From Prasinococcaceae sp. CCMP 1430 (lineage: Eukaryota > Prasinodermophyta > Palmophyllophyceae > Prasinococcales > Prasinococcaceae): a stretch of DNA of 59,616 nt. This document shows, piece by piece, positions 14,770 through 59,139 of this stretch. Below the pieces are notes generated by a model, which ran no database searches, was not told the DNA's origin, and saw nothing but the letters and a program-made list of their open reading frames with translations. The DNA lies in assembly GCA_013416795.1 (NCBI GenBank), contig RQSC01000025.1, positions 252,137 through 311,752 on the forward strand. The letters run 5' to 3'. The translations under genes and the position numbers were made by a program. How positions within the stretch are numbered: position 1 is the first letter of the stretch; each line of letters starts with the position of its first letter.

Positions 14770-16194
14770 TCACTGCGCTCGCGAGGTCTGTGTGCGCATT
14801 AGCGCGCACGCCCGTACCGGGATTCCCGCCTCGAAGCGGCGCTTGCGCTCAGCCGCCTCGGCCTCCTTCTTCTTCCGCGTGTCCTCGTCCATGTCCCGCC
14901 AGCGCATCTTCTTCTTCTTCTTCTTCTTGACGCTGCCCTCCCCACCGTCGGCGCTGTGTGCCGTTCCCCCCGCGCGTGTGCGAAGGGACGCCAGCGAGTC
15001 AGCGTCGCGGATTGCGCACGGCGTCGACAAGTGCTCGCACGCGCGCGCGCGCATGCACCCACTCACGCACACGAGGCCTCAAGGCACCGAAGGTCTCTCC
15101 GGTCAAGTTTGTCAGAGCGCGCGCGCACAGATCGCATTGCCCTCGGGCGCGTGGGCGTCGCGCTTCGCGTATGCATCGCCACGCACCCGCCCTCGCCACC
15201 GTGCTCGTCCCTCTCGCGCCTCTTGTGCCTGCCCTCGCCACCCTTCCCCTTGCGCGCGGCAACCGCGGGCCGCTTCTGCGCATCGGGCTCGCCTGAATCC
15301 CCTGCGTGCGCTCGTGGCCACACACACATGTCAGTACGCGCTGGCTAGAGCGCACGTACATGCACGGGCGCAAGCGCGCGGCCACGCACCTCCCTCGTTG
15401 CCGTCGTCAAAGGTGGTGTGGCGATTGGGGCGGTTGCCACCGCCGCCACCCTCGGCCCGGCCGCCGCCCCTCTCGTGCTCACGGTCCTCAGCGCGACGCG
15501 CGCCCGGCGCCCCCGGCGCGTCCCAGTCGCGCGGTGCCGACACGCGCAGGGTGCGCTTGGCCTTGCCCTCGCGCAGCTTCCATCGCTTGCTCCGCTTCAG
15601 CGCGTTGTTGCGCCCTGCCTCGCTGCGGAAGAGCACGAACGCCACACCCTTGCCCTCGCCCGTCAGCCGGTCGCGCACCACGCGTACCGCCTCCACCGCG
15701 AGGTCCTCCACCTCCGCCTCGACCGCAGCACCCTCCCCTTCGACCGCGACGGCGGCCTCGGCCTCGGTCTCGTGCGGCGCGAAGCACGCCACGAGCTCCG
15801 CTTCGGTGGCGTCGAACGGCACGCCGCCGACGAAGACGGTCCGCGCAGCGTCGTACTCGTATTCACCGAAGCCTCCGACGCGCCGTGCGTCAGCGAGATC
15901 CGTGGCCAGCCGCTCGAGGCGCACGACCTTGCCGGCCCCCCCTCCGCCTCCCTCGCTGGTACCCTCGAGCTTTATCCGGCCCGCCGCGAGAGCGGCGGCG
16001 GCAGCCGCCGCATCCTCGAACACCACAAACGCATTGGTGGCGGACGCGCGCGCCGTCTCAACGCCACCGAACGCGCGCGCCAGCCTCGCGACGACGTCCT
16101 CGCGGCGCACGCCGGGCGGGATGCCGCGCGCCACGACAGTGCGCGCGCGCTCATCGTCCGCCTGCCCCTCCAGGGCGGCCGCCGGCCCCGCCAT
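14770..16194 (-). CDS. RBM34/Nop12-like RNA-binding protein (60S ribosome biogenesis)
   Basis: Exons 15390-16194 (ATG at 16194), 15187-15292 and 14770-14953 join in phase (1, then 2) to give 364 residues. The first RRM runs from about RTVVARGIPPGVRREDVV. The second has RTVFVGGVPFDATEAELVACF and an RNP1-like GKGVAFVLF, preceded by VEAVRVVRDRLTG, which is diagnostic of RBM34/Nop12. The C-terminus is Lys/Arg-rich (a seven-Lys run, then RKKKEAEAAERKRR), consistent with nucleolar localisation. Yeast Nop12 acts in pre-25S rRNA processing. The gene diverges from URB1, another 60S assembly factor. The first RRM is degenerate. Exon 3 is short, so its splice sites deserve cDNA support. Confidence 0.82.
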
Positions 16195-16710
16195 GGCGTC
16201 GCCGCGGCCGGCGGCCGCTCGTCCTCGCACTCTCCCCTCCGTGGCGCCGCTGGGTCCCGCCGTCCGCCACCAGCCCACCCCTGGGCGTCACGCGCTCGCC
16301 GTGTGCGCGCCCAAGGCACGCGCGTGCTCCCAAGACGAGGGCGGGCAGGGTGGAAGAGGGAGAGACAGGCGGCGGCCCGCGCTACGAACGCCGCGCACGC
16401 CGGCCGGCGGCTCTCGTGCCCAGCCGCCGGAGCAACGGCGCTCGCGCTCACGCTGAACCCTAATCACCACGCTCGCACTTCGTGCGTACCATTAGTACCA
16501 TCAGGATGGTACCATCCCCGTACGAACGCCCGAAAACCTCAAATGATGCGATGCGATGCGCCCATGATCAAAGCGAATTGCGTATTCGCGCTGGAACCTC
16601 AACCGGGCGCGCGCGCGGCGGCTGCGGCGGCTGGCGTCGCGAGGTGGCGCCGGCGCCGGCCAAGCAGCGGCGGGGCCGGCGGCTCGGTGTACGTCGCGGC
16701 GGGCGCCGCG
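16195..16710. promoter_or_regulatory. shared intergenic region between RBM34 and URB1
   Basis: About 516 nt separate the two divergent ATGs. It contains AACCCTAA at 16456-16463 and GTACCATTAGTACCATCA, followed by a perfect 14-bp palindrome GGATGGTACCATCC (16504-16517). The layout suggests a bidirectional promoter; that is inference. Confidence 0.55.
16504..16517. promoter_or_regulatory. 14-bp palindrome GGATGGTACCATCC
   Basis: A perfect palindrome, with two further direct GTACCAT half-sites at about 16487-16501. A related 18-bp palindrome lies upstream of AsnRS at 48741-48758. Confidence 0.6.
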
Positions 16711-19700
16711 ATGGCGGGTGCCGCTGTCGGATCCGAGCCCGAGGGCGGCGGGACGATGATGGGCGTCCATGCGGGCGCCGGGCGCGGGGCTGCTGGGCGC
16801 GAGGGGCCGGGGCCGGCGGAGGGCGATGGGTACGCCGGCGCGCCGGCGGCCCCCCTCCCCGTTGCGCCCACCTCTGAGCTGCTCGCGCAGCTTCACTCGC
16901 GCTCGGCGGTGCGTGCCGAGCGCGGCCTAGATGCCCTGCGTGCGGCCGTCGCCGCGTCGCCCGCGGGCGCGCTCAACGAGCTGCTCGTGCGCTCGCCCGC
17001 GCTCGCGGCAATGTGGCGCGCGTGGGACACCCTCGCTGAGGACGCCAAGCACCGCGGCAGCGTCGCCGGGCTGTGCGCAGCCGCGACGGTGCTGCGCTAC
17101 GACCCGCGGGCAGACGCACGCGCGGGCGGCGCAGTGCTCGCTGGTGAAGCGGAGGCGCTCGCTGCACAGCTCGACGCCGTCGCGATGACGCTCGCGCGGC
17201 GCCGCCTGGCGGCGTGCCACGCGGCGCTCGCCAGCACCTCGCGGCTCCGTCAGGGTGCTGCGCTCGCGCTGCTCGCCGCTGCCGCGGCTGGCCGGCCCGC
17301 CGTCGCGCGCGAGCTCGTGCGAGCGGGCGGTCTCGACTTTGGCATCGTGACGTGGCCGAGGCTCGCGTACCACCCGAGAGCGCCCAAGGGTGATGCCGCG
17401 GACGCCCCCGCCGCTACGACCAAACGCAAACGTGGCAGCAGAGGCGGAGGCGCGGGCGGTGACAGCGCCGCGGCTGCCGCAGCGCGATGGTCGCCATCGC
17501 ACCGCTGCATGGGCGCACGTGCGCTGCGTGGGATACCAACGCGCGCGCTCTTCGTCGACCTCGCCCTGGCGCTGCTGCAGCCAGGCGAGGCGTCCCTCGC
17601 GCGCGCGGCGCTTTCGAAAAAGGTGCTCGCCGCAGGTCTGCTGCATGGGCTCGCGCGCGACCCGCCGCGGCGGGCGGCGCTCGCGTTGCGAGCGCTCAGG
17701 GAGGCTGCCCTGGGCGCAGGAGGTAGGCTTGGTGTCGGTGGCGGAGCGGCTGCGGCGCTCGCGGGGACGGCCGCACGCGAGCGGCGCGGCGGCAGTGGCA
17801 GCGGTGACGGCGGAGGTGGTGCCGGCGTGGTGCCATCGCGACTGATGAGCGTCGTGTTCGGCGACGCTGCCATCGAGCAGCTCGCGACAATTGCCGCGCG
17901 CGGCGGCGGTGAGGCGGCCGGAGGTGGCGGTGACGGTAGCGACGGCGACGGCGGCGACGGGGGCAGCGCCTCGAGCGACGAGGCGGTGGCCGCGTATGAG
18001 GCAGCAGCGATCCTCACGGCGCTCCTCACAGACGCATCGTTTGGGCTCGCACCGCCACAGCGCGCGGTGCTGTCGCACACGGGCGTGCGCGGCTGCACGC
18101 GCGCGCTGCGTGTCCTGCGCGCACTGCGCCCGAGCGCATGCGCCGCGCACGCGCGTGTGCTGCTGGGCGCTGCGCGCGCCGCCCCTTGCCTCGCGGCTGC
18201 GTACCTCGCTGAGCTTCCCATGCGCCTCGAGCCGCGCCTTGCGGAGAGGTGGCTAACGTCGATATCCATCGTGGGACAGCTCGTGACTGCTGCCTCGGCG
18301 CAGCCGCCAGGCGCGCACGCGGAAACGCGCGCGGGCGGCGGGTCAGGGGCACTGGCGGCGGCGGCGGGTGGCGTCGGCGCTCGCGAAGGCCGCGGTGCGA
18401 CCCTCTCGTGCCTCGCAGCGGCGGTGCTTCCCCCCGCGGCGTCCAAGGCTGCGCTGAGTCGCGGGCTGCAGCACAGCTCGCTAATGGTGCGATACGCGAC
18501 GGTCGGGCTGCTGCTGCGCTCGCTGGCAGCGTTTGAAGCGGTCTGCGGCGACGGACCACCGGGGGCAGCGGCGCCGAGCGTGCGCACGCGCGCGGGTGAG
18601 GGGCTAGGCCAGGCCTTGCGCGAGCGCCTTCGTGAGCGCCTGCCCGACGCGCAGACTCTTGTGGCAGCGCTCAGCGCCAGCGCGTGTGCGCACGCGACAT
18701 CACTCGACGCTGCTGAGACCTCTCATCGCCCAGCGTTGCTCCGTAGCCGCCTGCTTGAGCTGTTCTCGCGGTTGGCCATCTCCTTTCCCGAGGTGATCGC
18801 GGACGCCAAGCTCGATGCAGCCAGGCTTCTTCCCGCGCACGCTGGCGCGGCACCCCTCGGCGAATGCGTAGCGGCCGTGCGGCTATTGCGCGCCGTGAGC
18901 GCTCCAGGCTCTGGTGAAAGCGTGAGCGCGGGTGTGAGCGGCGGGGGGGTTCATAGGGCGCTGAGCGCGCACGCAGCTCTCGCGGCCTTGCGCACGATGC
19001 GAGGTACGCGCGTGGCGTGGCTGCACGACCAAGCGCGCGCGGTGGTCGTCGACGCGCTGCACGCGAGCGGAGCGTGTGTCGAAGGCTCGGGCGAGGCGAT
19101 GCTGTGGCTAGATGCGGTGCCTCCCAGTAGCAACGCTATGGCTACTGCAGCTGAGGAGGACGCGTGGGACGAATCGGACGCGTCGTGCGCAGTACTTGCC
19201 TTTTTCGCGCAGAGTGTGGCGGCAGCGATCAAGCGTGCGGGTGGCGGACTTGATGCCGACGAGGGCGGCGAGGGCGGCGCGAGTGCTCTCTCGCGCGTGG
19301 TGCTTTGCGCGGCGCTGAGATATTGCTCGCCGGCCAGCACGACTCGCACGAGGGAGCAACGCTGTGCGGTGGCGTGCTATGCCGCGAGCGTGCTCGCATT
19401 GTTGTTGCACCGCTCGCACGCTCTGGAAAGGCCCGCCCTCGCAACTGCATGGCTCGAAAGCGTGCGCGAGGAAGACGAGCCAACGCTTGCGGATGTCGAC
19501 GTATGTGGTGCGCTCAAGCTGCTGCGCATGCATTGCCGAGCGGCTATGTCGGAGCAACCAACCGAAGAGGCGAGCATTTTGATGCGCTCCGTCGACGAGG
19601 CGCGCGCGACGGAGGCGCGCTGCTGTGAGCTGCTGCGCAAGGCGCCCGTTCGCTGCCTGCCGGCGTACTTCGACCCACTGCGACCGAGACAGCTTCACGC

Positions 19701-22700
19701 TGATGCCCTCGAGCGCGCATCACTTAGTGCTCTGCGAAGCGCGCTTCCGAGTACGCTCTTGTGGACTTTCGCGGCGGCCAAGGAAGGCGCCTGCGATCCC
19801 ACGGATGATGGAATAGATCTCGAAGACATGTGCGCGCAAGCGCTGTGCGGCGTGGAGGCTCTGGCGGGGCTCATTGCTGCCTCAGGCGAGGAAGAAGAGC
19901 CGCTGGATGGGATTGATGCTCCGCTCGCTCTTCTTGCCGAGGTGCTGGCGTCGGACACGTTCACGATGGTCACGCGCGATGATGACACGTCGAAGTCAAA
20001 CTCAAGCGCGCACGTTGTCCAGCGCTTGACTGTGGACTGCATCTCTCGTGTGGTCGTAGCGTGCCGCAGCGGTGGGGTTGCCATTGGTGCTGCGCGCGCG
20101 CGTGCCGTGGCGATGTGCCGCACGTACGCCGACGGCGGTGCGCGAATGCTGCGGGCACGCATCGAGGGCGGGGCACGAGAGTGCGAGTCCTTTTGGTGCG
20201 ACCTCGTCCGCCACGCGGGTCTCGAGACCACCTTCGAGCTCGTGCGCTCGGCTGCGAAGGCACATGGAAGCGCGCACTCTGGATCCAGATCGAGTGCTGG
20301 CAGGCTCTTCTTCGCCGCGCTCGTTGAGGGTGCCGTCGATGCGCTGCATGCAAGTCTTGGCGAGTCGAATGTGCTCACGCAGGCCGAAGGTGACCAGTCT
20401 ACGCCTGATCATTCGTCCATTCATTCGGCCATGCGTGCGCTCTTCGACGTGTCTGAGTCTCTGGGCAACGGCTCGGAGGGCGCTCTGTTCGACTCGCGCA
20501 CTGTGGATTCCCTCTTCGAGTGCATCGGCGCGTGCATGCGTGCGTCGGACTCGCGCGCGTGCGCCGCGGGCGATGCCGCGGATCGCTTTGCCGTCTCACT
20601 TCAAGGCGAAAGCGTAGCCTCACTCGCCGCTCGCGCACTGGGCGCAGGTGCAGCTGATCTCACGCTGCCACGCGCGCGCGTCCTCGCCGACCTCGCACGC
20701 GGCTCGCTTGCTGCACGCCGCACGATCGTGGGCGCGCTTTTGAAAGCACCGCACGAGGTCCACGAGGGCGCGCTCTTGCTTCCAGTACTGGGGGCGTGCA
20801 CCACGCGCGGGGCCGCGCTCGACGCCACAGAACTGCACGCACTTCACGCCAAGCTGGCTGCGTTCCTCGCGTTCACGCTTTGCGGCTTGAGCGAGCTCCG
20901 TGATTCGCCGCAGGGAGCCGAAACTATTGCATTTGTTCTGCGTGGTGAGCTCTTTGACTCACACGAGTCTGTCCTGGACGTTGGCGACGCACCATTGCTG
21001 CACGCGCTGCCCATCGCCTTCGACTCCCTGTGCGCCGCCGGCGCCGCCGAGGTGGTCGAGGCCGTTGGCGAGGCGGCTGTAGCATACCTGGCTGAAGCTG
21101 GCACGGCGGAGGACGGCATTGAGGCGCTCTGCGCACCTGCGTGCGAATTCGCGTTGCGCTGCTCGCTGGCGACCGCCTGCGCGCTCTGCAAGTCGATGAC
21201 TGAGGCCGACGGGAAGGACGTTGATGGAGGCAACGGTGCAGCGGCATCCACCACTCAAGCGGTGCTTGCAACGCTCGAGGGTGCAAGCCGCCTCGCTGCC
21301 AAATGTTTCGTTGCCGATTCGAATGCCAGTGATGCCATCGCCGAGGGCGTGCGCCACCTGCGCGAGGCATGCCTTGCGTGTGTACGCGTGACTTGTGAGG
21401 ACGAGGGGCTGCTGCGCGCGCTAAGTGTGCTGCGGGACTCACCTGCCAATCAGACGGAAACGGCAACACAGGTGGCACCTGTGCTCGAACGCGCTTTCTC
21501 CGCGCTCACACCTTTCCTGGTGGGCGGCTTGCGTCATGCCCTAGGCGACGCGCGCACCGTCCGCACGATGGGCGACGCTCTTGGCGCATTCCTAGGTGGC
21601 AACGGGACTCCTCCAACAGCACGCGTGGAGAAGGGCTGCGAGCAGCTGCTGCATCTGCTCTTCTCTCACTCTCGCTTTCTGGCGCTCGCAAGCGGCACGG
21701 ACGTACGGCCCGGCGGCGCCGACGCACCGCTGTACCCTGATGCCATAGCGCGCCCCGCGAGTGGTGTGGGCGCCACGCTGGCGAGTGTGCTTCCATTTGC
21801 GGATGCGTGCACGGCCGTCGCGCCTGACCAACTTCCGGAGAAGACCAGCGAAGCTAAGGAGGCAGTGCTTGGCTTGGTGTCGACACTCGTGCTGTATGCA
21901 GATGCCAAGCTGGCGGTCTCGCTGGGCCATCTGCAGTCGCTGGTAGAGCTCCTCGCGCGTTGCTACACGGCAACATGCTCGGAGGCGGACCTGCAGCTGC
22001 ATGCCGTATTGCACACCCTGCACGCCCGATGCACTACGGCCGACCTGCCGGGCTTGTCATCGTTCGGCTTCGGGTGGGCCCGGACCTCGGGCACGGTGGT
22101 GGCAGGTGCTGAGACCGACGTGTCGCCCGAGCCACGGATCGACAGCTGGCGGTGCGCTCTCACCGTTGCGAACTTCCCTTTCGAGCGCGCGTACGGCACT
22201 CCCCTTTCGGATCGCGCAGGCAATATGGACGCTGTTGCAGCGGGAGGTGGCACCGCGTCTGATGTGGAAATGGATGACATTGAGACAGACGCGGAGGCGG
22301 TGGTCAAGGAGGACTGTGGTCAAGCTGACCGGCGCCGAAGACAGAGCGGCGGGGGGCAGAGCATGGGATTGTCAGGCGCGCTGGGCTGCCACCTGCCGAG
22401 CCTGGCGCCCTTTATGTACGACCCGCTGCACGTCTTGCGTTACGCAGCGCACGCCCTTGGCACGCGCGGGCTCGACGCAGCACGGGAGATCTCCCTCAAC
22501 GGGCTGTTCGCGGTGGCGCTCATGGCGCTGGCAGCGGTGGATACCGAGCTACGCTCGTGTGCGTACACGGTGGTGACACTGTTCATGACGTTAGTCGACG
22601 GTGCAACGGCCGAGGCCGCGGACGATGGCGAGGAAAGACAGAAGGCAAGCAACAAGCGCGGCAGGGATGCGCACGGTGGTCGGAGCGCCCGCATTGCTGG

Positions 22701-24621
22701 CGCGCGTCGCCATTTCTTTCGCGAGGCACCACAATTGGAGATGCTTCTTCGTTCGCTTCAGAACGCGGTGTCCGCTCCGCTCATGCGCCTGCCGGCGCTG
22801 TCGGCGGCTTTCGCCGCCGAGGCATCGTGCGTCCTATCGCATCCCGCGAGCGCACACTACGCAATGCTCAACAACTACCTTCTGCGGCGCCCCGCGCTCG
22901 ACCTCAGCGCGGTGCCACTCTTTTTCGCCATGTTCGGCAGCGCAACGCACGCCCTTGCGACTGATCGCGCGTGGGCGCTGCGGCTGCTGCTCGTGGGCGT
23001 GGGCGGCGCGGAGGACACTAAGATTCTCAGGAGGCTCTTCGTGGCAGAGCTGCTGATGAGTGGTATGGGGAGCTCCTACCTCGATCCGCAGGTAAGTCTC
23101 GCTCCGCGTGCGAATGCGTGCGCGCGTGCGTGGAGCCGTGATGTCACACAAGTATCTATGGAATCTCGTTAATCCCGAGTGGCGGGCCCGAGAGGGTGAC
23201 CGCGCGGTGCTGAGACGATCCTTTGAAAACGACTGAGCATCCCTGTGCACGTGCACGTTCACGTCAACGCATGCCAAACGCACATCCGTGAGCGCCATGT
23301 GTCGCTCTTGCTGACTTCGCGCCCCCCTCTGCGTCCGTGCGCACCCGCGCGCCGCCACGCAGTGCAAGGTTCTCGCCGCTGAGGTTGTGCGCAAGTGTGC
23401 ACACGTCGTGCCGTGCGCGCTCGATTTGCTCGATAGTGCTGGCCTGCTGCCTACGCTCTGCATGGAGGTACTCGCAGCGGGCAGACACGGCGCTCGAAGT
23501 ATGAGTGGTGCGCGCGAGGGTGGGATTGGCTCGAGCACCGCCTCGCAACACGTTGCGTCGGCGGCCCTGCAGGTGCTCGTGCGGCTCGTGGTACGTAAGC
23601 CTCGCGTGCCAGCGCGCGCGCGTCACCACCCTGCACGCATGAAATTTTGCTGACGTCTACCTCGCCTATGCGCTTTGTGCCCACCAATGTTCCGCCTCCG
23701 CCGGCGCAGGAGGTGCGAGACACTCGCATGCGGATGTGCCGCAACAACCTGGGCCTCGCCATTGAGTGCGCCCGCGCCCTCCTGTCGCGCTTCGCGAACC
23801 AGGAAGAGCTCGGCAGCTCACGACCGGCCCATCGCACGAGCGCGGAGGGCGACGAGCACTCACTCGTGCTGCGGTTTGTGGGCGGGGTATTGCGCGGCGT
23901 CCGGGAGAGCCGCGAGCGTGGCGGCGCGCGTTGGGCCCTCTCCTCAGCCGAGCTGGTTGCGCTCTTTGTGGCTGCGGGCACCCACAGGGGCGCGCGCGCA
24001 CACGCATTGCGCGTGGCGCTGCTCAGCGAGCCGACCGCGTTTTGGGCAGACGCGCACGCTGCCGATGCGAGCGAGAGCGAGGCGGCGCTCAGCTTCTTGC
24101 GCGTGGCTGTCGACACCATCGTCGCCGACGTCGGCACGGCCATGGATGGTGCTGAGGCGTTGGCTGGCGACGAGGCGTGTGCTCGCCCAAGGACGTTCTG
24201 CTCGGCGCTGCTGCAATGGCTCGCCGCGTCGGCGTGGGGGGCGCGCGGTGACTCGGGCGCGGGCGCACAGAGTCGCGAGGGTTCGCGGGTGTTGGCGGCG
24301 CTGCGCCCCGCCACTCGCCGCGAGGCGGTGTCGCTCGTTGCGCGTCTGGTCGAGGTCTGCCCGGCAGAGTGCCTACGCGAGGCCGCGCTGGTGCTGCTCG
24401 CGCTTTTGCGCCCCACCGACGCGCGCACGGTGGCGTTGCTGGGCGCGCTGCCCAACCCCACGCCGATGCACGAGAGTGTGTCTGCCGACTGTGGCGGCAC
24501 GCGGGCGCGGGAGGGCGAATGCGCGTGGGAGGGCGTGTGTGACCGCCTCATCGCGCCAGAGTGCGGCGCGGAGGCCGCCGAGCTCTTTGACCGTCTGGCC
24601 GGGCTCGTCGCCTCGATGTAA
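16711..24621 (+). CDS. URB1/Npa1-like nucleolar pre-ribosomal-associated protein
   Basis: Exons 16711-23091, 23363-23590 and 23710-24621 join phase 0 across GT-AG introns, giving about 2,506 residues, close to the size of URB1 (about 2,200-2,300 in animals). Most of it is helical repeat sequence. The diagnostic segment at about 22855-23091 (HYAMLNNYLLRRPALDLSAV, then FAMFGS, WALRLLLVGV and RRLFVAELLMSG) matches the NopRA1 region of URB1. URB1 works in early 60S pre-ribosome assembly. ATG 16711 was chosen because upstream codons are Ala/Arg low complexity; ATG 16756 is an alternative. The protein is Ala-rich and has Gly-rich insertions at 17400-17480 and 17730-17960. The stop is 9 nt from the stop of the convergent neighbour. 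Confidence 0.85.
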
Positions 24622-25883: not shown

Positions 25884-28800
25884 TCACGCGGCGCCCTTGA
25901 GGCTCCTATCGAGCTGCGCCTCGGCCGCACGCCGAGCGGCGAGCCAACTCCGCAGCTCGCCCATGTGCCTACGCCGATAGAACGTGCGCATGAGGTTGTA
26001 TGTGCTCAGCACCTTGCCCGTGAGGGTATCCACGTAGCGTCCGTCGGCGCGGGGCTCCACGCGAGTGGCCATGAACACGTCGAGGAGGGCGTCCGAGACA
26101 TGCTCGTCGGATGCTTTCGCTGGGGAACCGGAAAAGTGCACACCGTGCTTCGCGCCGCGCGCCGAGTCAAGGCGCACATTGTCCAAGTCCGCGTGCGTTT
26201 GTCCGCGCAAGTCCTGGGCGAGCGAGTAGAGTGCGCGCTCCTTGTTGAGTAACGTCTTGAAGTCGGGCGTGACGCGCGTCTCGGCGGGCGCGTACGGCTG
26301 TCCCAGCGGGTCCGCCGGCATGAGCGGCAGCGGCACAGGGGCACCCCTGTGCGCAGACCTTTGCACCTCCTCGTCCGCCAGTGCGGGGTCCGCACACTGC
26401 GCATGGGCCTGCGCGTCCGCGTGCGTACGCGCGTGTGCCCGGGTGTGGGCTCCTGGCGTTGAGGATCGCAGCACGCCCAACGGCACGGCGTCGCTTGCGT
26501 CCGGCGAGTTCACGTGCCGACCGGTCGCCACCGCCCACCTAGCGACCTGCGCGAGCACGCGGGGCTCGCGCTGGTAATACGTCTTCATGAGTGAGTAGGA
26601 CGAGAGCTCCTTGCCCGTGAGGCTGCACCGATAGCACCGTGGGCGCACGAGCTCCACGCGACTTGACATGAATTCGACCACCATCTCCTCGGTCACGGAC
26701 ACAGCCGGCAGTTGCTGCACCTTGGGCTCGGGCCCGGGCGCGCTCGCGCCGCCCTCAGCACCGGCATACACGGTGATGGTCCGTGGCCCATGCTCACGCT
26801 CGGGAGTCGTCTCGGCACTCTTGAGCGCCTCCAGCTGCGCCTCACCCTGTCGAGCGAGCGCTGCGGCCATCTCGCGCTGAATGTCCTGCTGCGAGCGCAA
26901 CAGCTCGGTGAGCGAGGCCATCTGCGCCAGCTGCTGCTCGGTGGCTGCCGTCTGTGCACTCACAGCCGCCTCGATGGCATCAGCTGACGAAGATGATGGT
27001 CGCGCAACGAGTCCGGCTCCAGCATCGGCCCCAGACGCCGCGGCTTGTGGCTGAGGGACCGGGGATTCGGCGCGCTCTGCGCCTCTCGCGCTCGCCTCGT
27101 CGGCCTTGTCAACCTCTACGCCCGCAGCCGCTACCCTGCGCGTTAGCATCCCCTGCGTCTGCTGCTGCGTCAGCAGCTGCTGCTGCTGCGCCTGCACCAA
27201 CAATTGCTGGCGCTGTCGTTCGAGCAGAAGCTGCTGCTCAGCCTGCGCGCGCTGTGCTTCGAGTATCTCTTCCTGATTGCGCAGGAAAGCGCCCAGCTGA
27301 GCGGAGAGCGCCTCGAGCTGAGGCGAATGCAGTGCGCGCGCTGCCTCCAACACAGCCTCAGTGGGAACGTTGACCTCGAGAGGAGTATGCGGCGTGAGAG
27401 CTGGTGGGTTGACGGCCGGCGGCAAACCCGCGGACAGTTGCTTCCGCCCCAGTTCGAGCAGGCGTCGGTCGCCATACTCTTGCCGCGCGGCGCGCGCTGC
27501 CTTGGTCCGCTCCTCGTGTGACGCGGCCTGCCGCAGCTGCGCGGAGTGATCCGGCACCGCACGTACGGCGAAATCGTCTTCGAGCCTGTCGAGCATGTCT
27601 TCCATGACGTCCTCGCAGTCGATGGCGATCGTGTCGCCAACCGACCGTAGCCACTCGCGGCAAGCCTCCGCGTCGTCGGAGGCGCCCTTGCCAATGCTCT
27701 CGTAGATGGCCAGAGCACGTTCGAAGAGCACCTCAGCGAGCTGTGGCTTGGACTGGTTCAGCAATGCCATCGAACCCATGTTGACAAGCCGCGCGGCGAC
27801 AGTCGGATGTTGCGCGCCGAGCGAGCGCTCGCCGATGGATATAGCGCGCACAAAGTACCCTTCAGCCTCGTCGCACCTGTCGAGGTCGCGCAGGCACAGC
27901 GCGGCGTTGTTGTAGTAGATGGCCACGTCTGTGTGGTCGTCACCCAACAGCGCGGTATTGATTGCCAGAGCGCGATCGTACAACGTAAGCGCCTGCGAAT
28001 GGTCGCCGCGCAGACGATACAGCCCCGCCATATTGTTGTAGTAGATGGCAACGTCAGGGTGGTCGGGGCCAAGCGCAGCTTCGTCGATTGCCAGCGCACG
28101 CCCGTACAGCTCCAGGGCCTCGTTGAGCTCCCCCTGCGCTTTCTTGACACCGGCGAGGTTATTGAGGTACGTCGCCACGTTGGGATGGTCAGGACCCAGT
28201 GCGGCCTCGTCGAGCGCCAGCGCGCGCCTGTACAGGGGCTCTGCCTCGGCCAGCCGGCCCATGTCGCGGTAGAGCTCGCCCAGGTTTGAGAGCCGAATAG
28301 CGAGGGTCGGGCTCTCGTGGCCATGGACGGCCTCATCAACCGCCAGCGCGCGTTTGTACAGCGGCTCTGCGACGTCGTGTCTGCCCTGCACGCGCGCCAC
28401 CTCTGCCACATTGTTTATGTACGTGGCCACCTCGAGGTGATCACTGCCAAGAACGCGCTCCGCGATTTTTAGCGCGCGCGAGTAGAGCTCCTCGGCGGCG
28501 GGCAGATTGCCCTGCACGCGTTGCAGCTCGGCGAGCGAGGTATGTACACGCGCAACCGGTAGCGAAGAGTGCCCATAAAGCGCACGAGCGGACTCAAGGG
28601 TGCGCGCGAGGCAGAACTCGGCCTTCTGCCATTCACCATGACCCTTGTAGCACGTAGCCATGTCCGCGAGGTGCGAGCTCACCTCAGGGTGCGCCGCCCC
28701 GAGTGTGGCCTCGAGGGATCGCAGTGCCTGCTCGAGGGCGTTTTGAGCATCGGCATGGCGATCGCGCGCATCGAGCACACGGCTGAGGGAGCAAAACGAG

Positions 28801-31610
28801 CGAGCGAGCGCGAGACGCGCCCAATCTGAACCGTCCACGCCGACGTCAAGGGTGTCGCCAATGCGCTCGCCGTCCCCATCGGCGACGCCCTCGAGCTCCA
28901 CATTGAGGCGACTGTACGCTTCCTCGGCGTCCCCGAGGCGGTTGAGGCGCTCCATGGCAGCGCCAAGATGCGCGAGCGCGTCGAGCGCCAACACGGGTGC
29001 CTCCCGTGCGATGCCCATTGCCACGCGCAGGGCCTCCTTGAGCACGCCTTCGGCCTCACTCGCGGCTGCGTTGCCCCCGCTTTGAGCGTCCACACCCGCC
29101 CCGATCGGCGCCAACGAAGCTGCTGCAAGAAGCGACTTCGCGCGGCTGATCTGCAGACGCGCGACGGCGTGGGCGCCGACACTCGACAGCGCGCTATTGG
29201 CGCCGCTACTTGCTCGCGCGCGCCGATCTGCCGCGCGCGCATACACGCCGGCGGCCTCACCCGGCCGTCCCAGGAAGTCCAGAAAGCAAGCAAGCGCGGC
29301 GCATGATTGCTCCGCCTCGCTCGCGCGCATACGCACACTCCCGTCTGTGTGGCTGCTGGGGATTGCACCCCGGGCGACGGCGGCGTCAGCCATGGCGGCA
29401 GCTTCGACGGCGGCAGTGGTGGCCTCCTCTGCGTCAGCGACAAGCGCGCCGCGCCCCCCCGCGCACTGCTGCACGCACGCCGCCCAGCCCTCGAGCAGTG
29501 AGTACCGGTGCAAGCGCGATCCGCCAAAGTGGAGCGTGCACGCCGGATGCACCAGGCACGCACGCAGGTCGTTCCAGCGGCGCGCCTGACGCAGGTGGTA
29601 CAGCGTCTCGCGGCAGAGGCGCAGCGCGCTCGCGTCGGCCTTAGGGGGTACTGAGCACAGGTGCGCCGCGAGCGCTTCGTGCACGTCGCGCTTCTTGAAA
29701 GAGCTCTCCTGTAAGTATCGCTCCTCCACCGCACGCCGGACCAGCGCGTTGCGTGCACACGCAGCCCCGCCCAGGAATGCACGTTCCAGGGCGAGGTCGT
29801 CGCTGCGCACATCTCCCGCACCGTCTCCGCCCCCGGCGCCCGTAGCCGACGTGATGGTCAACAGCGGATGCATTGTCTGCAGGATCTTCTCCCAGTGCAC
29901 AGCGGTGAGCGCCTCTGTCCCCTCGCGTGAGCGGAGGAACGCAAGCATTTCCGAGGGCGCCAACCCGCAATCGCACGCCGCGTACGCACATATGGCGTCG
30001 GCAACGACGCCATCGCCATGCGCTTCCTCGAGACGCGAGAGCGCTTGGTCGTACACCTCAAGTTCGCTCGCTTCGACTGCCTCGATGGCCGACAGTATGT
30101 CATCTGGCAGCTCGCTTTCCGCCGTCGCGACCACCTCATCTGCCGCAGCCGCAAGAAACCCCGGCGTCACAGACGGCACTGGCGCGCCCGCCTCAATCTC
30201 GTCGTAGTCTTGGCCGCTCACGGCGGCACGCACGAGTGCCGACGCCTCGCTGTCGGACACCCCGCTGCGGAAGCGCGCGGCCAACAGCTCTCGTGCGAGG
30301 GACACTGCCTCCGAGCGCACAAGCGTTGGCATCTCACTCTCCAAGACCGCGCCACCGTACCGCCTACGGGCAGCCTCGCACCACACGCCGCCCGCACCAC
30401 TCAGCACGACGCGCACGCAGTGCGGCAGCGAGCGCGGCAGCCAGTCGAGTGATACCCGCGCGCCGACCCCCACGTCGAGCTTGTCGAGGCCATCCAAAAC
30501 AATGACGCAGCCCCCGCAGCTTGCAGCGTGCATGAGCATCCGCGACAGCGCGCTGGGAAGCGCCCCAGGTGACGCTGGCACTTCGCGGAGGAGTGCGCCG
30601 GCGAGGCCGTAGCGGCCAGTGGCGGCCCTTCCGCCGAAGTGCGCGCGGAGTTCGTGGCAGAGGCGCTCCGCCACCGCACGCGCGTCGCGGCATGCACCCG
30701 GTGCGTCCACAAAGTGGTACAGGACTGGAAGGCCATCGTAGCCGCCCGAACGGGAATAGCCACCGTGCCGCTTCACCTCGTCCTCGAGTGCGCACGCAAG
30801 CCGCGCGAGCATCGTCGACTTGCCTGAGCCGGCCACGCCAGTCAACAAGAGTGGGTTTTGTATGGGCTCGTCGCCGCCCACGTCAGCTGGCACGGGCGCC
30901 GACGCGAATCGGCGCATTTCCGTGAGAGTTCGCCTGGCGCCGGCCCCACAGTCTCGTGCACGCGCGCGAAGGCGGCGCGCATGCGCGCGGTGGAGCGCGC
31001 GCTCGGTGGCGAGCTCGGCGGCCGCGCGAGCGACACCGTCGCCGGCGCCGAGCGTGGCGGATGCCGGGGGCACGCACGCGCGCACACTTGCAGACGATGG
31101 AGCGTCTCCCCTCTCGCCTCTGCTGGCACCCTGTGCGCTGTTTCTCAAGGCATCGCTCTCGCTGTCAGCGGCTGCCTCAATGGCTGCGGCCGCAGCCGCT
31201 GCGGCCGCCGGACCGGCGGTCGACGGTGTCGACGGCTCGGCCGACCGCAATTTCGAGGGACCCGTGTGGGCTGCATCGAGGGTGCTGTGGGAACCCCTCG
31301 TGCCGCTCCCGACGGACCCCATCCCGGGTGACCGATGCCTGGAGCTCACGTCCATAGACGCGTCGCTGTTCGCCACGCCGCCGTCGCTTGCTCTGCCACC
31401 CCCGTAGGGACTAGCACTCTCCTCGGCGGCGCCCACTGCACGGTCTCGGTCGTCGCGGTCTTCCTCCTCGAAAAAGTCATCAAACGCCCCGCCGCTGACG
31501 ACGCCCTCATCGCCCGTGTCGCCCTGCGTCAGTCTCGCCGCAACAGAAGCAGCCTCGGCTGATGAGAGCACGTTGGGGTCCTTCTCGTTCTTTGATGACC
31601 CACTGCCCAC
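25884..31610 (-). CDS. nephrocystin-3-like P-loop NTPase with TPRs and a duplicated C-terminal module
   Basis: About 1,908 codons. Numbering from the first codon: an acidic, Ala-rich N-terminus; a P-loop GVAGSGKST at about 258-266 and Walker B CVIVLDGLDKLD at about 368-379 (NACHT/STAND type); helical sequence; then about eight 42-residue kinesin-light-chain-type TPRs at about 940-1290 (AEPLYRRALALDEAALGPDHP and similar); and Gln-rich coiled coil at about 1435-1490. The end carries two copies of an unknown roughly 60-residue module (from about 1639 and 1838), each with FM-x-S/T-RVE, LTGK and S-x-Y-x-LM. P-loop plus TPR resembles nephrocystin-3, a ciliary protein, but a generic NLR-type TPR protein is possible. 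The first codon is GTG, so the start is unresolved; ATG 31355 or an upstream exon is likely. The segment at 26400-26470 may be an in-frame intron. Confidence 0.75.
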   Translation of the reverse strand: MGSGSSKNEKDPNVLSSAEAASVAARLTQGDTGDEGVVSGGAFDDFFEEEDRDDRDRAVGAAEESASPYGGGRASDGGVANSDASMDVSSRHRSPGMGSVGSGTRGSHSTLDAAHTGPSKLRSAEPSTPSTAGPAAAAAAAAAIEAAADSESDALRNSAQGASRGERGDAPSSASVRACVPPASATLGAGDGVARAAAELATERALHRAHARRLRARARDCGAGARRTLTEMRRFASAPVPADVGGDEPIQNPLLLTGVAGSGKSTMLARLACALEDEVKRHGGYSRSGGYDGLPVLYHFVDAPGACRDARAVAERLCHELRAHFGGRAATGRYGLAGALLREVPASPGALPSALSRMLMHAASCGGCVIVLDGLDKLDVGVGARVSLDWLPRSLPHCVRVVLSGAGGVWCEAARRRYGGAVLESEMPTLVRSEAVSLARELLAARFRSGVSDSEASALVRAAVSGQDYDEIEAGAPVPSVTPGFLAAAADEVVATAESELPDDILSAIEAVEASELEVYDQALSRLEEAHGDGVVADAICAYAACDCGLAPSEMLAFLRSREGTEALTAVHWEKILQTMHPLLTITSATGAGGGDGAGDVRSDDLALERAFLGGAACARNALVRRAVEERYLQESSFKKRDVHEALAAHLCSVPPKADASALRLCRETLYHLRQARRWNDLRACLVHPACTLHFGGSRLHRYSLLEGWAACVQQCAGGRGALVADAEEATTAAVEAAAMADAAVARGAIPSSHTDGSVRMRASEAEQSCAALACFLDFLGRPGEAAGVYARAADRRARASSGANSALSSVGAHAVARLQISRAKSLLAAASLAPIGAGVDAQSGGNAAASEAEGVLKEALRVAMGIAREAPVLALDALAHLGAAMERLNRLGDAEEAYSRLNVELEGVADGDGERIGDTLDVGVDGSDWARLALARSFCSLSRVLDARDRHADAQNALEQALRSLEATLGAAHPEVSSHLADMATCYKGHGEWQKAEFCLARTLESARALYGHSSLPVARVHTSLAELQRVQGNLPAAEELYSRALKIAERVLGSDHLEVATYINNVAEVARVQGRHDVAEPLYKRALAVDEAVHGHESPTLAIRLSNLGELYRDMGRLAEAEPLYRRALALDEAALGPDHPNVATYLNNLAGVKKAQGELNEALELYGRALAIDEAALGPDHPDVAIYYNNMAGLYRLRGDHSQALTLYDRALAINTALLGDDHTDVAIYYNNAALCLRDLDRCDEAEGYFVRAISIGERSLGAQHPTVAARLVNMGSMALLNQSKPQLAEVLFERALAIYESIGKGASDDAEACREWLRSVGDTIAIDCEDVMEDMLDRLEDDFAVRAVPDHSAQLRQAASHEERTKAARAARQEYGDRRLLELGRKQLSAGLPPAVNPPALTPHTPLEVNVPTEAVLEAARALHSPQLEALSAQLGAFLRNQEEILEAQRAQAEQQLLLERQRQQLLVQAQQQQLLTQQQTQGMLTRRVAAAGVEVDKADEASARGAERAESPVPQPQAAASGADAGAGLVARPSSSSADAIEAAVSAQTAATEQQLAQMASLTELLRSQQDIQREMAAALARQGEAQLEALKSAETTPEREHGPRTITVYAGAEGGASAPGPEPKVQQLPAVSVTEEMVVEFMSSRVELVRPRCYRCSLTGKELSSYSLMKTYYQREPRVLAQVARWAVATGRHVNSPDASDAVPLGVLRSSTPGAHTRAHARTHADAQAHAQCADPALADEEVQRSAHRGAPVPLPLMPADPLGQPYAPAETRVTPDFKTLLNKERALYSLAQDLRGQTHADLDNVRLDSARGAKHGVHFSGSPAKASDEHVSDALLDVFMATRVEPRADGRYVDTLTGKVLSTYNLMRTFYRRRHMGELRSWLAARRAAEAQLDRSLKGAA

Positions 31611-31627: not shown

Positions 31628-31918
31628 TCAGCGCGCGCTCCTGCTCGCTCCGGTGGCGTTCCTGATCGCGTCCGCGGCGTCAGCCAGACGAGCGTCGAGC
31701 CGAGCCAACTCCGCGCGACTCCCACGCCGTGCAAGCGCGAGCTCCGCACGCAACTCGCGCGAGCCCGCCTTGAGCCGCTCGAGCGCGCGCAGCGCCGCCG
31801 CCGACGGTGTTGGCGTCACCGTTGCCACCACCGGCGCTGGCGCCGGCGGCACGAGCGCCGCTGCCGCCGGCGCAGGTGGTGCCGGCTGCTGCGCCCCCTG
31901 GTCCTCGCGAGCAGACAT
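31628..31918 (-). CDS. short helical reading frame, possible 5' exon of the nephrocystin-3-like gene
   Basis: ATG at 31918, 96 residues: a Pro/Ala-rich stretch, then a charged helix (ALRALERLKAGSRELRAELA, then RAELARLDARLADAADAI). It stops 17 nt before the neighbouring large frame, whose first visible codon is GTG. A GT-AG intron of 62 nt, from the GAG-TTG junction to CCGGAG, would fuse it in phase (2) to QERALSGPPAE and the large protein. It is therefore either exon 1 of that gene or a small separate gene. The splice is inferred, not shown. Confidence 0.45.
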   Translation of the reverse strand: MSAREDQGAQQPAPPAPAAAALVPPAPAPVVATVTPTPSAAALRALERLKAGSRELRAELALARRGSRAELARLDARLADAADAIRNATGASRSAR

Positions 31919-32264: not shown

Positions 32265-33881
32265 TTACACGTCCTCCTCCATGTCTGACACGTCCGTGTC
32301 ATCATCTGTGCGCCGCAGCTCCATCACGGGGCCCTCGGGCGGCCGCTCGCCGAGCTCCTCGGCAATCTGCGTGAGGCGCTTGTGCACGTCTTCGGCGCGC
32401 GACGCCACGGCGCGACACGTGATGTGCAGCTGGCTCGGACCATACCGACGAATGCTATCTAGAGAGGACGCCAGGAGCCCCTCAGCGCTCGAGCCCAGCT
32501 TCCCGATGCTCCTGGCCGCGGCGAGCAGGGCCCTGGCGTCCGCGACGGCATTCTCCTGTTCCGACAGAAGCGCGTCCTCGGGCACGGGTTTGCGGTGCAT
32601 GTCGCGCGCCGGCGCCAGCTGCGGCGGCGGCGGCACGGCTGGCCCCTGCGCCGCCACGCTAGCGCTACTGCGGGCAGCGGTGCGGGCGTGCGATGTGCTC
32701 CCGTTCGACGCGCTGTGACTGGCCGCGGTGCTGGCCTTGAGGGCCTGGGCGGCAAGCCGCTTGAGCCAGTTGTCCGTCTCGTACTTGAGCCAGGCGAACG
32801 GCTCCAGCAAGCCGCGCGCGTCGGGTGCCATCCGGCACTCTTGAAGCGCCACCATCCAGGCCCCCTTTCCAGCGTCAGGCGGAATGAGAAGCACGCTCAC
32901 CAGGCCCTCCATGAGCTGCAGCAGGTCCGCGCACGTGCGCGTGTTCTTCGAGCTCTTGCGCCACCCCAGCCGGCGAGACCGCCACACCTCGGACACGCCC
33001 CCCCACGGGATTTGAGCCTCCAGCGTCGTTAGCTCCCTCCGGATGGCCGACACTGCCTCGAACTCCGAGGCGCGCTCCGGGTTCAGGTTGCCCGGCATCG
33101 GGAGCGAGCCCTTCTTCGGGCGCGGGGGAGGTCGGGGCTGCCGCGGGCGCGCTGCCTTCTTGTCGCCAGTCGCCTGGCGCGACAGCCACCTGTGGTTCAG
33201 CCGCGCGACCTCATTGCGAGCCGAAATGTGAACCCGGTACCACCCGCCGAGGAGCACCTCCTTCACCACCCCCGCCTGGCCCATGTACGCCTCGGGGCAG
33301 CGTTTCGTGTTTTTGACAACCACGCGCTCCTCGAGCTCGAAAGGGATCTGCGAGGGCTTGCGCGTGGCGCCGCCGTCCGCGCCCGCTGCGCCCGCCCCGC
33401 CTAGCGCCGCCCCTGCCCCCGCGCCGAATGCGTTGCCACCCACAGGGATGTGGCCGCCGGCGCCGGCGCCCGCGCCTCCGAAGCCCAGAGGGTCGCCCAT
33501 CCCCAGGCTGAAGCTGTCGCCGCCGAGGAACGCTGCGAGGTCGCCGTCCTCCGGCATGGGCAGGTGGAACTGCCCCCCGTTTCCGGTCGCGCCTCCTCCG
33601 GCCGGCGCGACGGCCGGCGCTTGCAGCGCGCCGGTCAGGTCGACCGGCACCTCGGGAAAGGCCATCCCGCCCATGCTTCCGACGGGCACGGGCTCGGGCA
33701 CGGGCATGGTCTGCATGGCACCGCCCATGAGCACGTCGAACGACAGCCCGGGCGAGATCGCGCCGGGCATGGTGCCCATGTCGCCGCCCACCTGCGCGTC
33801 CGACGACTGCCGCGCCGCGCCGCCACCCACGCCCGCGGGCCTACTCGGCGTCTGCTGGCCGCCACCATCGCCCACGTCCAT
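32265..33881 (-). CDS. nuclear-type protein with KOW-like segment and WSD/D-TOX-like motif
   Basis: ATG at 33881, 538 residues in one exon. The first 170 residues are Gly/Pro/Met-rich and disordered. Then EERVVVKNTKRCPEAYMGQA and VVKEVLLGGWYRVHI resemble a KOW/Tudor-like beta segment. A basic linker follows (KKAARPRQPRPPPRPKKG). The block from FEAVSAIRRELTTLEAQIPW to VWRSRRLGWRKSSKNTRTCA, continuing DLLQLMEGLV, resembles the Trp/Arg pattern of WSD (D-TOX E) motifs found with DDT domains in chromatin remodelling subunits. A final helical region precedes an acidic tail (DDDTDVSDMEEDV). A chromatin or transcription role is inferred from weak similarity; no DDT domain is seen. Confidence 0.7.
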   Translation of the reverse strand: MDVGDGGGQQTPSRPAGVGGGAARQSSDAQVGGDMGTMPGAISPGLSFDVLMGGAMQTMPVPEPVPVGSMGGMAFPEVPVDLTGALQAPAVAPAGGGATGNGGQFHLPMPEDGDLAAFLGGDSFSLGMGDPLGFGGAGAGAGGHIPVGGNAFGAGAGAALGGAGAAGADGGATRKPSQIPFELEERVVVKNTKRCPEAYMGQAGVVKEVLLGGWYRVHISARNEVARLNHRWLSRQATGDKKAARPRQPRPPPRPKKGSLPMPGNLNPERASEFEAVSAIRRELTTLEAQIPWGGVSEVWRSRRLGWRKSSKNTRTCADLLQLMEGLVSVLLIPPDAGKGAWMVALQECRMAPDARGLLEPFAWLKYETDNWLKRLAAQALKASTAASHSASNGSTSHARTAARSSASVAAQGPAVPPPPQLAPARDMHRKPVPEDALLSEQENAVADARALLAAARSIGKLGSSAEGLLASSLDSIRRYGPSQLHITCRAVASRAEDVHKRLTQIAEELGERPPEGPVMELRRTDDDTDVSDMEEDV

Positions 33882-34606
33882 CGCGCGTCCGCTGCGGTGG
33901 GCCCGCTCCGCGCTGGGGCTGCCGCAGTCGCCTTCCCTTTCCCCTCCTTTGCGGGTGTTTGTGCTTTCGCGCGAGCGCGTGCAAGTGGCCGCCCCACGGG
34001 CGCGCGGGCCCGCTGTCTCTTCCCCCCTTGCACAACCGCCCGCCTTCCGACGCGCGGGCTTCGCCTGATCCCTCCCGCCGCTCCCCGCGCAACCGGCTGA
34101 GGGGAGGGGGGGGGGGGGGGGAAGGGGACAGCCCCGCGTCGCGCGCCGCGCGCGGTGTGGCACGCGAGCGACGCCGCGCGGACCGCCGCCGCGCGCGAAA
34201 AGCGCGCGCGCGCGATCACGGAACCCCCACGGATGCTTTCCTTTCGGAACTCAATACTACTTCAAATAACCTAGTTTTCCGAGATACCATTTGGAACCCA
34301 TAATGTATTGGAATCCGCGTCGGAAGCGCGAAAAAGGCGGCGGCGGGCGCGCGGTTGGCTCGCCCGTGTGCAGCGCGCGCCCTAAAAAAAAATGGGACGC
34401 GAAAGAGGAGCGCGCGGGCGCAGGGCGCGCGCTCGAATCCCCGGAAAAGAAAAATCATGAGAATCGATCCCCGAACCATATTATGGGTCATCGAATCTAG
34501 GGTTTGTTTGAATGTTTGTTTGTTTCGGGGGAGCTGCGACCCTGAGACTAGACTATGGGATCGTATTCCTGGGATTGCGGGACGGGGCGCCTCGTCTGCG
34601 GCCAGA
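33882..34606. other. intergenic region between divergent genes
   Basis: It contains a G-run at about 34105-34122 and an unusually AT-rich stretch (34225-34320 and 34380-34560) with GTTTGTTTGAATGTTTGTTTG. A TAGGGTTT (telo-box-like) motif lies at 34498-34505, upstream of the GT77 gene. No gene is supported. Confidence 0.5.
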
Positions 34607-57485: not shown

Positions 57486-59139
57486 TTACTGCTCGGCGTC
57501 GGCGGCGTCGGCAGCATCGGTGGCTTCGGCGGCGTCGGCGGCATCGGCGGCGTCGGCAAACTCGGCAGCGTAGGGTGTGTCGTCCTCGCCCATCTCTGCG
57601 AGCGCTGCACGCACGGCGGCGTTGTCGACGACACCCTTCGCGACAAGTTTGGCAACCGTGGCCTTGGCCTTGGCCGAGGCCTCGGGCAGCGGAGGCGGCT
57701 TGGGAGGGTCGTCGCCCTCGCCGCTGTCGTCCTCACCCCCCTCCTCCGGCGGCGCATACTCGGCGTCCGCCTCACCCTCACACTCGGTGATAGCCTCCGC
57801 ATGCTCCTCACCAAGGCTCTCCTTGAGCTTGGCGAGCAGCGCGACTGGCATCTCAGCGTCCCTGGCGATGCGCTCCTGCTCGGCGATCAGCCTCTGGCGC
57901 TCTGCCTCCGCCGCGGCCTCCGCCTCCTTTTTAGCCTGCAGCCGCGCGGCACTGGCCGCAGCCCTGCTGGCCGCGGCCTGGTCAATGGCGTGCTGCGCAG
58001 CCGCCACGATGGCCGCCTTGGCCACCTCGGCCTTACGACACTCCTGCCCGACACGCGCGTGCAGCCATGGGAGGAAAGCCTCCTCGAGCTCGCGCTCGAC
58101 GGGGTCGTAGAAGAAGCCGTCCTCGTACATGCGCTCGAAGACACCACCCACGAGCCCATTGAGGTAGCCGCGCGCAAACGTCTGGGCGGCGATCTTCTCG
58201 CGCACCTCGGCCTCGCGCTGCACGCGCGCGCGCTCCTGCGCGAGCCGCCGCTCCTTCTCCTCGGCCTTGCGCTGCTCAGCGGCCTCCATGCGCTGCGTGG
58301 CCACCAGCTCGGCGTTGCGGATCTGTTCAAAGTGCTCCTGGTGCGCGCGCATCGCTGCGAGCTCCTCCTCTTCGAGCACCTCCATGAGCCCCTGCTCGAG
58401 AGTCTTGCCTACAAGCACCTCCAGGAGCGGCTCGACCTCGAAGTCGAAGTCGAAGAGGTCACCTTCCTCAATCTGCGTGGAAGTGTCGAGGCCCGACTTC
58501 TGCGGAATGAAGAGCGGCGTCGGTGGGCGATCCATGAAGGCATCGGTCTGCGTCGCGCCCTCGGCCTCGGGCGCCTTGTCGGTCAGCTCCTCGAGGTACG
58601 TGTCGGTCTGGACGTCGATGTGACGGCGGCCCTCGGCGGCCTCGGGCGTGCCCGGCGCACGGTATGTGCGCGCGCGTTTCTTGGAGTGCGCACTGCCACC
58701 GGTGCCCGCGGCCGTCGCGCCGAGGGGCGCGACCGCCGCGGGGAGGATCTGCGCCGCGTACGTGTTGCCACGGATCACTCGCCTGTCAAACATGATGTTG
58801 TTCGCCATCTTGCCGCTTCCCCATGTCTCGCCGCCCGCGGGCTCGCGATACTTGGAGCGAGACTTGGCAACGGGCTTCGGCGCCTGTTGGGTGCACAGAA
58901 GGGGGGGAGAGGCGAGGAGGGGAGGGCGGAGAGGCGGCATGGGGGTTGGCGCAGGAGGCGGAAGCGGAAGCGGGCAACAGCGGCGTTCCGAAACGGAAAG
59001 GCGGCACTCGGGTCGGTCAGCACCAGGGCAGGGCTGTGCGCACGAACGCCACGGGAGGATGGAATTTTGTGCCAAGCACAGAAGCGCGCGCATCCGGTAC
59101 TTTCAAGGCCCGCGACACCCCATGCACGCGCGCGTGCAT
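57486..59139 (-). CDS. RSP3: flagellar radial spoke protein 3
   Basis: The main exon 57486-58883 encodes KSRSKYREP, then NIMFDRRVIRGNTYAAQ, the hallmark of RSP3. Conserved blocks VQTDTYLEELTD, ATQTDAFMDRP, STQIEEGDLFDFD and VEPLLEVLVGKTLEQGLMEV follow, and then a long Glu/Arg coiled coil. ARGYLNGLVGGVFERM and DPVERELEEAFLPWL complete the conserved domain. The last 120 residues are acidic and end in about eight degenerate DAADAAE-type repeats. RSP3 anchors radial spokes to axonemal doublets and is an A-kinase anchor. A 39-nt first exon at 59101-59139 (ATG CAC GCG ... AAA, donor GTACCG) joined phase 0 to 58883 would supply the start; this exon is a proposal. Confidence 0.92.

Follow-up and report, generated by a model that had tools for sequence, protein, structure and literature searches.

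A protein encoded on the minus strand of the window (the whole 59,616-nucleotide stretch that was analysed, from the green alga Prasinococcaceae sp. CCMP 1430) combines a STAND-type P-loop NTPase domain, kinesin-light-chain (KLC)-type TPRs, a Gln-rich helical stretch and, at its C-terminus, two copies of a duplicated module. Structure prediction indicates that this module is probably a zincless C2H2-like finger fold and not a new fold. The protein may act as a nucleotide-switched scaffold in which the two modules serve for docking, a proposal with about an even chance of being correct. Its parts are placed as follows.

25884..31610, minus strand: reading frame for the STAND-TPR protein (P0001); the printed version has 1908 codons and begins with GTG
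31628..31918, minus strand: probable upstream coding exon in another frame, from the ATG at 31918, indicated by codon usage
30426..30857, minus strand: STAND/AAA_16-like P-loop NTPase domain, residues 252-395, from Pfam
27651..28793, minus strand: KLC-type TPR array, residues about 940-1320, from Pfam
27111..27293, minus strand: Gln-rich, helical (coiled-coil-like) stretch, residues 1440-1500
26493..26702, minus strand: module copy 1, residues about 1637-1706, seen as a duplication, with a C2H2-like predicted fold
25887..26108, minus strand: module copy 2, residues about 1835-1908, seen as a duplication, with the same predicted fold

Reading frame and start of the gene

The frame is open over 1931 codons from stop to stop. 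The remaining five frames of 25884-31610 contain 22-44 stops each, with 392 codons as the longest run between stops. Every C-terminal piece had its best codon-usage score in the frame of the ORF, and the codon usage of the tail matches that of the NTPase and TPR part in this frame and in no other. Being in frame and of like codon usage, the C-terminus therefore belongs to the STAND-TPR gene; a separate C-terminal gene, which the original prediction had named as a possible objection, is ruled out on the same grounds. Part of the linker between the module copies (residues 1707-1770) has a weak codon-usage score and could hide an intron. An 86-base stretch of the linker after copy 1 (26453-26538, minus strand) has intron-like ends (AG/GTGGGC ... 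CTCAACGCCAG/G). As its removal alone would break the frame, this stretch is probably coding, despite the weak codon usage of the linker.

The GTG at 31610 is not credible as the start of the protein, and no in-frame ATG was found before residue 86. Translation likely starts at the ATG of the upstream exon, which reads MSAREDQGAQQPAPP... (MSAREDQ...) and encodes a Pro/Ala-rich segment followed by a helical, coiled-coil-like stretch. The codon-usage score of this exon is 0.155 in its own frame, compared with -0.41 and -0.07 in the other frames. If part of the gene, it must be joined to the main frame via an intron or a frameshift. Enumeration of the splice sites gave several possible GT-AG joins, none of them decisive. 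The sequence GSGSSK, encoded directly behind the GTG, looks like a myristoylation site, except that it is preceded by Val (VGSGSSK) and not by an initiator Met. Use of the upstream exon would place it inside the protein.

NTPase domain, TPR array and the proposed nephrocystin-3 assignment

The NTPase domain carries a Walker A motif or P-loop, LLLTGVAGSGKST (GVAGSGKST), at residues 254-266 and a Walker B motif, VIVLDGLD, at residues 369-376, as a STAND NTPase does. Binding of ATP is supported by these intact motifs, as far as the sequence can tell. The Pfam models AAA_16 and AAA_22 scored over their cut-offs (36.7 bits for 32.6, and 27.4 bits for 27.0), and NACHT and NPHP3_N under theirs (21.2 bits for 26.7, and 22.0, also 21.0, bits for 24.8). 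No paralog of the NTPase region was found in the genome, and no relative in viral contigs. Structure prediction of this region without an alignment was unusable (pLDDT 40). A winged-helix or helical region was sought between the NTPase domain and the TPRs, and no specific Pfam match was obtained there.

The array consists of about eight KLC-type TPRs (TPR_10, 172.8 bits over 8 stretches), whose nearest relatives in the PDB are kinesin light chains 1 and 2. The score of TPR_12 (253.8 bits, 8.5e-77) identifies the C-terminal superstructure-forming repeats that belong to a STAND protein. The STAND-type P-loop and KLC-type TPRs of the original prediction are thus borne out, and a STAND NTPase followed by TPRs is the secure level of assignment that the sequence allows. 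The Gln content reaches 28% in residues 1440-1500, compared with 3.6% in the whole protein. Of the Gln-rich coiled coil that had been proposed there, the Gln-rich helical stretch stands, and it is coiled-coil-like in appearance. The whole tail from this stretch onward matches no Pfam family.

The architecture had also been described as nephrocystin-3-like. The TPR_NPHP3 model scored 176.2 bits, over its cut-off of 100. Higher scores (238 and 204 bits) are reached by two further STAND-TPR proteins of this alga, so this model cannot identify nephrocystin-3 (NPHP3) here. The best places of NPHP3_N in a genome-wide search were other P-loops, and 13 of the 14 prokaryote genomes used as controls also gave matches to the model, which makes it unspecific. 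With NPHP3_N under its cut-off and both models unspecific, membership of nephrocystin-3 is not established; the P-loop and the KLC-type TPRs hold, and the NPHP3 identity has no specific support.

The genome (24.5 Mb in 145 contigs) contains flagellar genes, one of which, for radial spoke protein 3 (RSP3), lies in the window, as do other genes.

15418-23172, plus strand: ORF with Npa1 and NopRA1 domains, 60S ribosome biogenesis (URB1-type)
32265-34163, minus strand: ORF with a PUB62-63_C domain (41 bits), no U-box detected
57486-59093, minus strand: RSP3 (Radial_spoke_3 at 57972-58640, 307-310 bits)

There are 12 matches to dynein heavy chains in the genome, as well as an UNC119, whose similarity to UNC119 far exceeds that to PDE6D. 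The gene had been placed in a flagellate. Flagellar genes are indeed present, and a flagellum is not implied by them, since in Prasinoderma coloniale flagella are reported absent though the flagellar gene set is present (PMC7455551); the wording is therefore better limited to the presence of flagellar genes in the genome. The immediate neighbours encode the Npa1/NopRA1 ribosome-biogenesis protein, the protein with the PUB62-63 C-terminal domain and a nucleotide-sugar transferase, and gave no functional hint for the STAND-TPR gene. The GC content of the window is 62-76% (per 2 kb). The genome also encodes chlorophyll a/b-binding proteins, two of which (L013 and L014, at G000:C68 and G000:C54) are strikingly close to the multi-domain LHCI chains of PDB 9vfj (620 and 1048 residues) and are possibly LHC polyproteins.

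RSP3, the dynein heavy chains and UNC119 would suit a protein that is the nephrocystin-3 of this alga. In that case it would be a membrane-associated scaffold of the flagellum, brought there by UNC119/ARL3 and docked by its modules to axonemal or membrane partners. The order of P-loop and TPRs, the 176-bit match to TPR_NPHP3 and the myristoylation-like GSGSSK are also consistent with this. The identification is nevertheless unlikely: TPR_NPHP3 prefers other proteins of the same genome, NPHP3_N is unspecific and below its cut-off, the GSGSSK follows a Val, and the likely upstream ATG would leave no N-terminal glycine.

The duplicated C-terminal module

The two copies of the module, of about 65 residues, are 37% identical. 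Their Smith-Waterman score is 94, compared with a mean of 23.5 ± 4.3 for shuffled copies (z = 16.5); the shuffle maximum was 47, and 94 was reached in none of 5000 shuffles. The two-copy module of roughly 60 residues that had been noticed by eye is therefore a genuine duplication. When the whole assembly was searched with each copy, only the copy itself and its partner were matched (the partner at E 4e-5). When the genome was scanned at the DNA level with a degenerate version of the core motif, allowing two mismatches or fewer, nothing beyond the two known copies appeared. No Pfam family was matched at E up to 10, as the original prediction had supposed; no relatives were found in viral contigs or prokaryote genomes, and a viral structure library gave no convincing match. 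Across the own assembly, viral contigs, prokaryote genomes, Pfam and the PDB, relatives of the module are known from the STAND-TPR gene alone.

The AlphaFold2 model of the module, built on an alignment of the two copies only, has a mean pLDDT of 81 and a pTM of 0.60; confidence was lower (62-70) in three of five models. It consists of a helix, a β-hairpin, a second helix and a long helix. A Foldseek search with this model placed zinc-finger regions of ARS2 first (probability 0.97-0.99, E from 0.11), and the matches below included entries for the spliceosomal U2, TUT1 entries and a finger of SWI5. As the tables give entry titles only, the ARS2 region is presumed to be the zinc finger of that protein, and the U2 snRNP chains are taken as the matrin-type fingers of SF3A2/Prp11. 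The structure prediction that had been proposed for the module thus points to C2H2-type zinc fingers. Superposition on ARS2 with VIA-align gave a Z of 5.8 over 71 residues, and values below 8 can reflect a common shape.

The two best matches of a sequence profile in the PDB were also C2H2 fingers, with E-values of 0.12 and 0.25 (0.46 and 0.74 in a second search), so that no significant sequence similarity to zinc fingers was found. In the printed alignments, the GK and the core Leu/Met of the module fall in the C2H2 register. In that register, the ligand positions are occupied by C1662, T1665, Y1678 and E1682 in copy 1, and by D1861, T1864, F1877 and R1881 in copy 2. Neither copy has the two Cys and two His of a C2H2 finger, and C2H2-type zinc binding is therefore lost. 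Judged by these residues, copy 2 has no C2H2-type zinc site, and copy 1 is very unlikely to have one.

A C2H2-like fold with lost zinc ligands is the best account of the module. It is held as a statement about the fold only, because the sequence comparisons are insignificant, the Z lies below 8 and the model comes from two sequences; it does not establish that the module descends from a zinc finger. The module that had been called unknown thus lacks a Pfam family, and its fold, from AlphaFold2 and Foldseek, is probably a known one. Alternatively, the module may be a new small domain, with its likeness to C2H2 fingers due to convergence on a common hairpin-helix shape. Foldseek E-values above 0.1, a VIA Z under 8 and the absence of Pfam, viral or prokaryotic relatives would fit. 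However, sequence profile and structure independently choose C2H2 fingers in the same register, and convergence is considered a serious possibility that falls somewhat short of an even chance.

The alga has a probable orthologue of ARS2/SERRATE (L024, G000:C72:451169-451705; 84.9 bits). Its finger reads YGCKLSQKKFIAPEFVVKH, with a Ser near the second ligand position. Homology of the module with this finger looked convincing by eye but is not claimed, with scores at the level of shuffled sequences and an hhalign E of 0.09.

A role of the protein on RNA, with the modules binding nucleic acid like the fingers of ARS2, SF3A2 or TUT1, is very improbable. Although most of the structural matches are to fingers from RNA-associated proteins and copy 2 has basic residues (RTFYRRRH), the ligands are lost, homology to the ARS2 finger of the alga is not significant, and the NTPase-TPR context is unlike that of a typical RNA protein.

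Proposed function and relation to known systems

As a nucleotide-switched scaffold, the protein would bind ATP through its P-loop NTPase and, like other STAND proteins, alternate between closed and oligomeric states. The TPR superhelix would recognise a partner, as in kinesin light chain, and the Gln-rich helical stretch may aid self-association. The two modules could then form a tandem docking surface, most likely for a protein. The location of the protein may be flagellar, which is somewhat doubtful, the alternative being a cytosolic sensor. The full combination is improbable: a green alga with a flagellar switch-scaffold that docks through a duplicated C-terminal element, either a metal-free descendant of a C2H2 finger or a new small domain.

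NLR-like proteins of fungi and bacteria commonly combine a STAND NTPase with TPRs, and the genome encodes further P-loop and TPR proteins (on C43 and C102). The protein could accordingly be an NLR-like cytosolic sensor, with the NTPase as a switch, the TPRs as ligand sensor and the C-terminal modules as an effector or signalling tail. Sensors usually come in variable families. The gene is however single-copy: its NTPase region has no paralog, the module has not expanded, and the TPRs are fewer and more diverged than those of C43 and C102, whose arrays are near-uniform; a sensor of this kind is rather improbable. The P-loop/STAND proteins in question (G000:C43:156877-158214 and G000:C102:39316-43359; L001-L008) have long arrays of near-uniform KLC-type TPRs, the regularity of which is suggestive of recent expansion, and TPR_NPHP3 gives them higher scores than the STAND-TPR protein of the window.

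STAND-TPR proteins differ mainly by their attached parts, and a duplicated, apparently metal-free finger is an unusual attachment, small enough for direct testing. A flagellar location would make it a case of an NPHP3-like scaffold re-equipped in algae. Any other location would call for caution with the Pfam NPHP3 TPR model, which then gives the nephrocystin-3 label to generic STAND-TPR proteins.

Nephrocystin-3 shares with the protein a P-loop NTPase followed by KLC-type TPRs, and the genome of the alga has flagellar genes and UNC119. In contrast, the match to NPHP3_N is below its cut-off and an N-terminal Met-Gly was not found. A long Gln-rich stretch and a duplicated tail module are not known from NPHP3. 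The NACHT- or NB-ARC-TPR proteins of STAND/NLR-like type (C43, C102) likewise have an NTPase followed by TPR_12/TPR_10 arrays, whereas the protein in the window has a different NTPase sequence, more degenerate TPRs and extra C-terminal modules, and is present in a single copy. The C2H2- and matrin-type fingers of ARS2/SERRATE, the U2 snRNP, TUT1 and SWI5 resemble the module in the predicted order of helix, β-hairpin and helix, and in the register of GK and core Leu/Met. The module differs from them in lacking three of the four zinc ligands in copy 1 and all four in copy 2, and by the insignificant sequence similarity. Ml4 and Ml5 of the Ros/MucR family, bacterial DNA-binding proteins for which no sequence relation to the module is shown, have C2H2-like domains that fold without zinc, and thus provide a precedent for the module as a zinc-free folded domain of this kind (PMC9779718).
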